Origin: a bacterium
GTDB lineage: Bacteria; Electryoneota; RPQS01
Length of the DNA: 64,000 bases
NCBI GenBank assembly: GCA_036504735.1
Contig: DASXUQ010000005.1
Span: 1 to 64,000 of the forward strand
Reading direction: 5' to 3'
The notes beneath the pieces are model-generated. The model saw only the letters and a program-made list of their open reading frames with translations, made no database searches and had not been told where the DNA came from. This document shows positions 39,810 through 40,620 of the stretch, in pieces. The translations under genes were made by a program, and so were the position numbers. Positions within the stretch are counted from its first letter, which is position 1; the number at the start of each line of letters is the position of its first letter.

Positions 39810-39832
39810 GGGCCTTCTGTGGAAGGATTTTG

Positions 39833-39904
39833 CTCCGGAGGAGGGATTCGAACCCCCGGCCTAGTGGTTAACAGCCACCCGCTCTACCGCTGAGCTACTC
39901 CGGA
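39833..39904 (-). tRNA. tRNA-Asn (GTT anticodon)
   Basis: Reads as a full cloverleaf on the minus strand: acceptor TCCGGAG/CTCCGGA, D-arm TAGCTCAGCGGTAGAGC, anticodon loop CTGTTAA giving GTT, and T-arm with GGTTCGAATCC. The discriminator is G and no CCA is encoded, so the tail is added by a nucleotidyltransferase. A promoter at 39944-39916 and a terminator at 39809-39776 make it a stand-alone transcription unit. Confidence 0.96.
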
Positions 39905-40103: not shown

Positions 40104-40132
40104 TTGCTAATATCGAGTGGGTTACGCATATT
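40104..40132 (+). promoter_or_regulatory. Promoter of the small basic gene / HIT operon
   Basis: TTGCTA (40104-40109), 17-bp spacer, CATATT (40127-40132), 45 bp upstream of the ATG at 40178. The 160 bases between this and the tRNA promoter (39945-40103) hold nothing I can recognise. Confidence 0.6.
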
Positions 40133-40177
40133 AGAATCCGAATCCGCTTTGAGCTATGTTCAAAAAGGAGGAGTATC

Positions 40178-40279
40178 ATGGGACGCCACAAACCGGAGAT
40201 GCAGCGGTTACATCGTCGCAAGATGAGGAAACACAAAGCAGCGGCGGCAGCGAGGCGGACACCACGAGCAAAGACATGA
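40178..40279 (+). CDS. 33-residue basic protein, possible bS22/mS38 (AURKAIP1/COX24)-type ribosomal protein
   Basis: A very short gene with strong translation signals: AAAGGAGGAG (40164-40173) five bases before ATG 40178, and a TGA stop that overlaps the ATG of the next gene (ATGA, 40276-40279). The product begins MGRHKPEMQRLHRRKMRKHK and ends in an Ala/Arg/Lys tail; about 13 of 33 residues are Arg, Lys or His. The RRKMRKHK core matches the KMxKHK hallmark that I associate with the AURKAIP1/COX24 domain, found in mitochondrial mS38 and in 33-residue mycobacterial bS22. I infer an rRNA-binding small-subunit protein. It could instead be a leader peptide that only couples ribosomes to the HIT gene. 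Confidence 0.6.
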   Translation: MGRHKPEMQRLHRRKMRKHKAAAAARRTPRAKT

Positions 40280-40620
40280 ACGATTGTATTTTCTGTAAGA
40301 TTATTTCGGGCCAGATTCCCTCGAACAAAATCCTCGAGACCGAGGACGTTTTTGCCTTCCGGGACATCGCCCCGCAGGCCCCGCAGCATGTATTGATCCT
40401 GCCGAAGAAGCATGTGGGCCGGTTAGCCGACCTTCGGGAGTCGGATGGGGAGTTGGCGGGGAAATTGCTGCTTTCCGCAGCAAAGCTGGCGCACGACCTC
40501 GGCATGGAACAGGATGGATTCCGGGTTGTGATCAATAATGGTGAGAAGGCAGGACAATCGGTCTTCCACCTGCATGTCCATCTGCTGTCCGGCCGGGAAT
40601 TCGGCTGGCCTCCAGGCTAA
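40276..40620 (+). CDS. HIT family hydrolase (HinT-like)
   Basis: Histidine-triad purine nucleoside phosphoramidase of 114 residues. The zinc-type cysteines C4 and C7 (CIFCKI), QHVLILPKKHV and the triad SVFHLHVHLLSGR (H-L-H-V-H-L-L) are all intact. HinT-type enzymes hydrolyse AMP-lysine and other adenosine phosphoramidates. ATG 40276 overlaps the stop of the 33-codon gene. The frame is open for 120 further bases upstream, but those codons belong to the small gene in another frame. Confidence 0.93.
   Translation: MNDCIFCKIISGQIPSNKILETEDVFAFRDIAPQAPQHVLILPKKHVGRLADLRESDGELAGKLLLSAAKLAHDLGMEQDGFRVVINNGEKAGQSVFHLHVHLLSGREFGWPPG

Follow-up and report, generated by a model that had tools for sequence, protein, structure and literature searches.

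The window is a stretch of 64,000 nucleotides of bacterial DNA in which a small open reading frame (ORF) runs into the start of a gene for a histidine triad (HIT) hydrolase, with a tRNA gene on the opposite strand. The features of the locus are:

39832-39904, minus strand: tRNA-Asn(GTT), the divergent neighbour
40104-40132, plus strand: likely promoter, with a -35 hexamer TTGCTA (40104-40109), a 17-nt spacer and a -10 hexamer CATATT (40127-40132)
40165-40171, plus strand: Shine-Dalgarno sequence AAGGAGG, a 7-nt match, 6 nt upstream of the ATG
40178-40279, plus strand: gene for a small polybasic protein of 33 amino acids, MGRHKPEMQRLHRRKMRKHKAAAAARRTPRAKT
40276-40279, plus strand: ATGA stop/start overlap of the small ORF with the HIT gene, the TGA of the small ORF being 40277-40279
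40276-40620, plus strand: gene for a HIT hydrolase, HinT-like, 114 amino acids (Pfam PF01230, E 1.2e-28)

The initial annotation had pointed to a near-perfect Shine-Dalgarno sequence a short distance before the ATG and to a TGA that overlaps the next ATG, and both observations hold, the overlap being with the HIT start codon at 40276. The predicted small protein has a pI of 12 and is 39% lysine plus arginine. Its HIT neighbour carries the HxHxH triad as HLHVH and scores 99.9 bits against the NCBIfam purine nucleoside phosphoramidase model, which is below the cut-off of that model.

The small protein was first sought in 60 relatives. A profile made from the first seven orthologues was run on 39 genomes of the phylum, and a profile of all nine orthologues was run on 386 genomes. 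Of the 11 genomes in the same family, 9 carry an orthologue, each as exactly one copy. The two family members without an orthologue are 56% and 80% complete and neither gives a HIT match; the small protein is conserved in all nine family-level genomes where the HIT locus could be found. In the searches of 39 and 386 genomes no other family of the phylum had it, and it therefore cannot be a core ribosomal protein. The orthologues are 31-36 amino acids long, and all nine have a pI of 11.3-12 and a lysine plus arginine content of 39-48%.

Mean pairwise amino acid identity among the nine orthologues is 0.52 in the frame of the small ORF, as against 0.26 and 0.24 in the two alternative frames. The pN/pS ratio is 0.46 for the whole ORF, a value as low being reached in none of 200 column shuffles, and 0.385 over codons 2-20. 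Residues M1, M8, H12, R13 and K15 are invariant. An ORF of this short length could have arisen by chance, but this explanation is refuted because orthologues are present in 9 of 11 family genomes, their identity is specific to one frame and the pN/pS ratio is low against the shuffles. The overlapping ORF 40156-40620, which would make the region an in-frame N-terminal extension of the HIT protein, was also rejected, since its frame averages only 24% pairwise identity and is interrupted by stops in two of the genomes (G002 and G010). Comparison among relatives confirms that the small ORF is a real coding gene whose protein is under purifying selection. The initial annotation was thus right to call it an overlooked 33-codon gene linked to HIT.

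Most of the orthologues are preceded by promoter-like hexamer pairs at a near-constant distance from the start codon; for most of the nine, the pair has the form TTGnnn-17-CATATT/TATATT and lies about 40-75 nt upstream of the small gene. The summed promoter score of the nine upstream regions was higher than that of all 300 mononucleotide shuffles, while the score of the window's own site is not significant singly (P 0.30), as is the case for several other single sites. The small ORF is best explained as heading a small transcription unit.

Eight of the nine copies lie directly upstream of HIT, a position whose conservation the initial annotation had proposed to check, and divergent from tRNA-Asn(GTT). 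At all eight linked junctions the two reading frames overlap by 4 or 1 nt or are separated by a gap of 1-5 nt (-4 to +5 nt). A clear Shine-Dalgarno sequence precedes the small gene in 8/9 orthologues, whereas in most linked copies HIT is without a good one of its own. The strong site at the small ORF and the poor site at HIT suggest that translation of the two may be coupled.

The same arrangement would be expected of a translational leader, an ORF whose main role is to supply ribosomes to the HIT gene that it overlaps and whose product is of little importance. The contact with HIT kept in 8/8 linked copies and the unequal Shine-Dalgarno sequences fit such a leader. However, a leader does not account for purifying selection at the amino acid level (pN/pS 0.46, 0/200 shuffles) or for the invariance of M8, H12, R13 and K15. 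In one genome (G001) the small gene is found at C2:117685 while HIT is on C8, and there it persists intact with its own Shine-Dalgarno sequence; since this copy is kept apart from HIT, the small protein is not merely a leader peptide. The initial annotation had foreseen a leader if the overlap were conserved and the amino acid sequence were not, and the 52% in-frame identity is the opposite of that outcome. We regard a leader as improbable.

The initial annotation had further suggested that the product may be one of the AURKAIP1/COX24 proteins (mitochondrial mS38 and bacterial bS22), from the string RRKMRKHK. A protein of the bS22/mS38 family would be expected to sit in the h27/h44/h45 pocket of the 30S subunit. 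In general character bS22 resembles the small protein, as it has about 30-33 residues, is highly basic and helical and is easily missed by annotation, and the window protein offers the 33-residue length, a basic helix and, in this one genome, the hallmark string. The string is indeed present, but KMRKHK occurs in only 1 of the 9 orthologues, that of this genome, and the K-M-x-x-[HK]-K core is not kept across them; the residues conserved in the orthologues are other than those of bS22. Neither Pfam nor NCBIfam matched the window protein, and no orthologue gave a COX24 match. A scan with COX24_C (PF08213), the check proposed at the outset, gave nothing over the cut-off in the same genome or the phylum, although the failure of this model alone is weak evidence since it also misses the genuine bS22 of the phylum. 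We aligned solved bS22 chains with human mS38, after checking the sequences, and compared the resulting bS22/mS38 profile by hhalign with the small-protein profile. The score was 9.68, where shuffled columns gave a mean of 10.1 and 51 of 100 shuffles scored as high or higher.

The bS22 profile did find a genuine bS22 gene elsewhere in this genome, at E 7e-11:

G000:C10:314828-314923 (L089 3029-3124): genuine bS22 gene with a TTG start and a Shine-Dalgarno sequence, MPCGKKRKRHKMSTHKRKKRLRKNRHKKKIR

This gene lies between an HU-like gene and xseA, and its product matches solved bS22 chains by phmmer at 2.7e-9 to 3e-7. Across the phylum, 36 of 39 genomes match the bS22 profile; within the small-gene family 10 of 11 do, the exception being a genome that is 56% complete. 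Of the 20 loci read, 18 have a leucine-type (TTG-like) start codon in place of ATG, and the bS22 of the phylum is missed by both Pfam COX24_C and NCBIfam. Published bS22 proteins are those of mycobacteria, Flavobacterium, Borreliella and Cutibacterium (PMC10618245, PMC10085706), and it is to the C10 gene that they correspond and not to the window ORF. With a true bS22 elsewhere in the genome, it is very improbable that the small ORF encodes bS22/mS38 or one of its diverged paralogues. The small protein may or may not be ribosomal in a more general sense.

Other tiny ribosomal proteins were also considered. The lineage-specific add-ons bTHX, bL37 and bL38 are similarly tiny and restricted to certain lineages, and gene finders overlook them; in Borreliella, bL38 and bS22 had been unannotated (PMC10618245). 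The small protein differs from them in that it matches no solved chain and is only a putative ribosome binder. It has no homologue among solved ribosome chains, and a PDB profile search with its family was empty. The Thx profile (PF17070) gave no match in the genome of the window (G000) at E 0.1 and none over the cut-off in the 39 genomes. The idea that the small protein replaces bTHX or bS21 was rejected, as bTHX gives no over-cut-off match anywhere in the phylum and 38 of 39 genomes, among them all members of the small-gene family, have bS21. Weak Pfam matches of the small proteins to DUF6800 and Unstab_antitox (E 0.1-0.2) were discarded, and a plasmid search gave no match.

The sister families of the phylum have no such small ORF before HIT. 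In three of them (f4, f5 and f7) HIT and the bS21 gene (rpsU) are no more than 1 kb apart in 10 of 15 genomes; such proximity was not seen in families f1 or f3, and in the small-gene family, where bS21 is encoded elsewhere, the two are unlinked. A gene for a small-subunit protein is thus often found near HIT in this phylum. The HIT-bS21 pairs resemble the window locus in that HIT adjoins a gene for a small basic protein, but bS21, a separate gene that is nearly universal, is encoded downstream of HIT. No report of HIT and rpsU in one operon came up in a literature search.

The nine-member profile also met a 59-amino-acid protein in another phylum (E 3.5e-5, in 1 of the 386 genomes). This protein belongs to an uncatalogued conserved family of basic proteins of 60-74 amino acids that is present in 21 of the 35 genomes of its phylum. 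We found that the long-family gene adjoins tRNA-Ser(GGA) on the same strand in all 21 carrier genomes:

L102-L113, L117 and L138-L145 (for example L102, L106 and L113): long-family loci, co-directional with tRNA-Ser(GGA)

At L106 and L117 the long-family gene ends 8-18 nt upstream of tRNA-Ser, and at L113 its stop codon is about 15 nt inside the tRNA gene. A second, shorter long-family copy (G388:C93:5608-5721, L114; positions 1-38 of the long family, in a 47-amino-acid open frame) has no tRNA neighbour.

When the N-terminal 24 columns of the short and long families were compared by hhalign, the score was 35.9 with a probability of 95%, and the best of 200 shuffles reached 18.9. The alignment is anchored at the start codon and covers a motif that is roughly M[GA][RK]xKxEM..[LIV]HR[RK]K in both families. 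The resemblance held without the seed sequences, at scores of 32.4 and 27.1, and with the HRKK-type genus only, at 34.8; the YHKK types alone gave a weak score of 14.2 against a shuffle maximum of 13.0. Neither family has a significant match in Pfam, NCBIfam or PDB. The long protein differs from the short one in being twice as long, in having an extra conserved LNR.AKK.FYKR.KAGY half and in its linkage to tRNA-Ser rather than HIT. Common descent of the two families is likely but not proven, because the long-family profile, searched in the reverse direction, fails to find the short proteins at E 0.01. We tentatively suggest that both may belong to an undescribed family of tiny polybasic translation-associated proteins that carry the motif as a helix and occur in at least two phyla. 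In its short form the gene would be coupled to HinT and face away from tRNA-Asn, and in its long form it would abut tRNA-Ser(GGA) in the same orientation.

AlphaFold, run on the single sequence, predicts one helix over residues 4-27 (pLDDT 85, pTM 0.42), a model that proves little since it was made without an alignment. The likeliest role of such a polybasic single helix is to bind structured RNA, and the protein would most plausibly sit on the ribosome or on another complex containing rRNA or tRNA, like other tiny add-on ribosomal proteins. The strong ribosome-binding site of the small ORF would probably also feed the overlapping HinT-like gene by termination-reinitiation. We infer, with a probability of roughly one half, a lineage-specific basic single-helix protein that binds structured RNA, probably at or close to the ribosome, and whose translation is coupled to that of a HinT-like hydrolase in one unit. 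This reading is favoured because the protein is conserved as a protein, has a pI of 11.3-12 with 39-48% lysine plus arginine and is confidently predicted to be helical; because the small gene has a strong Shine-Dalgarno sequence in 8/9 orthologues against the poor one of HIT, a promoter-like pair and a separate copy in G001; and because HIT neighbours bS21 in sister families and the protein resembles the tRNA-Ser-linked one. Counted against the ribosome are the lack of a solved-chain homologue and of a family model, the absence from other families, the fact that HIT is unlinked to bS21 in the small-gene family, and a basic composition that by itself fits DNA or membrane binding equally.

The charge and predicted helix would also suit a polybasic peptide that binds RNA or DNA off the ribosome and is co-expressed with HIT, for example a tRNA or mRNA chaperone or a nucleoid peptide. 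A tRNA gene adjoins in 8 of the 9 loci, and the resembling protein of the other phylum stands beside tRNA-Ser(GGA) in 21 of 21 carrier genomes, which is consistent with such a peptide. However, no regulator domain and no target was seen, and the tRNA neighbours differ (divergent tRNA-Asn as opposed to co-directional tRNA-Ser) and may be coincidental. We consider an off-ribosome peptide somewhat unlikely, if less so than a leader.

Annotation would miss a gene of 33 residues such as this one, and the case warns that tiny basic ORFs should not be named by a six-residue string. The occurrence of bS22 in this phylum extends its known bacterial range and shows how such proteins escape annotation. 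The small gene itself adds to a poorly studied phylum a small-protein family for which there is no existing model.
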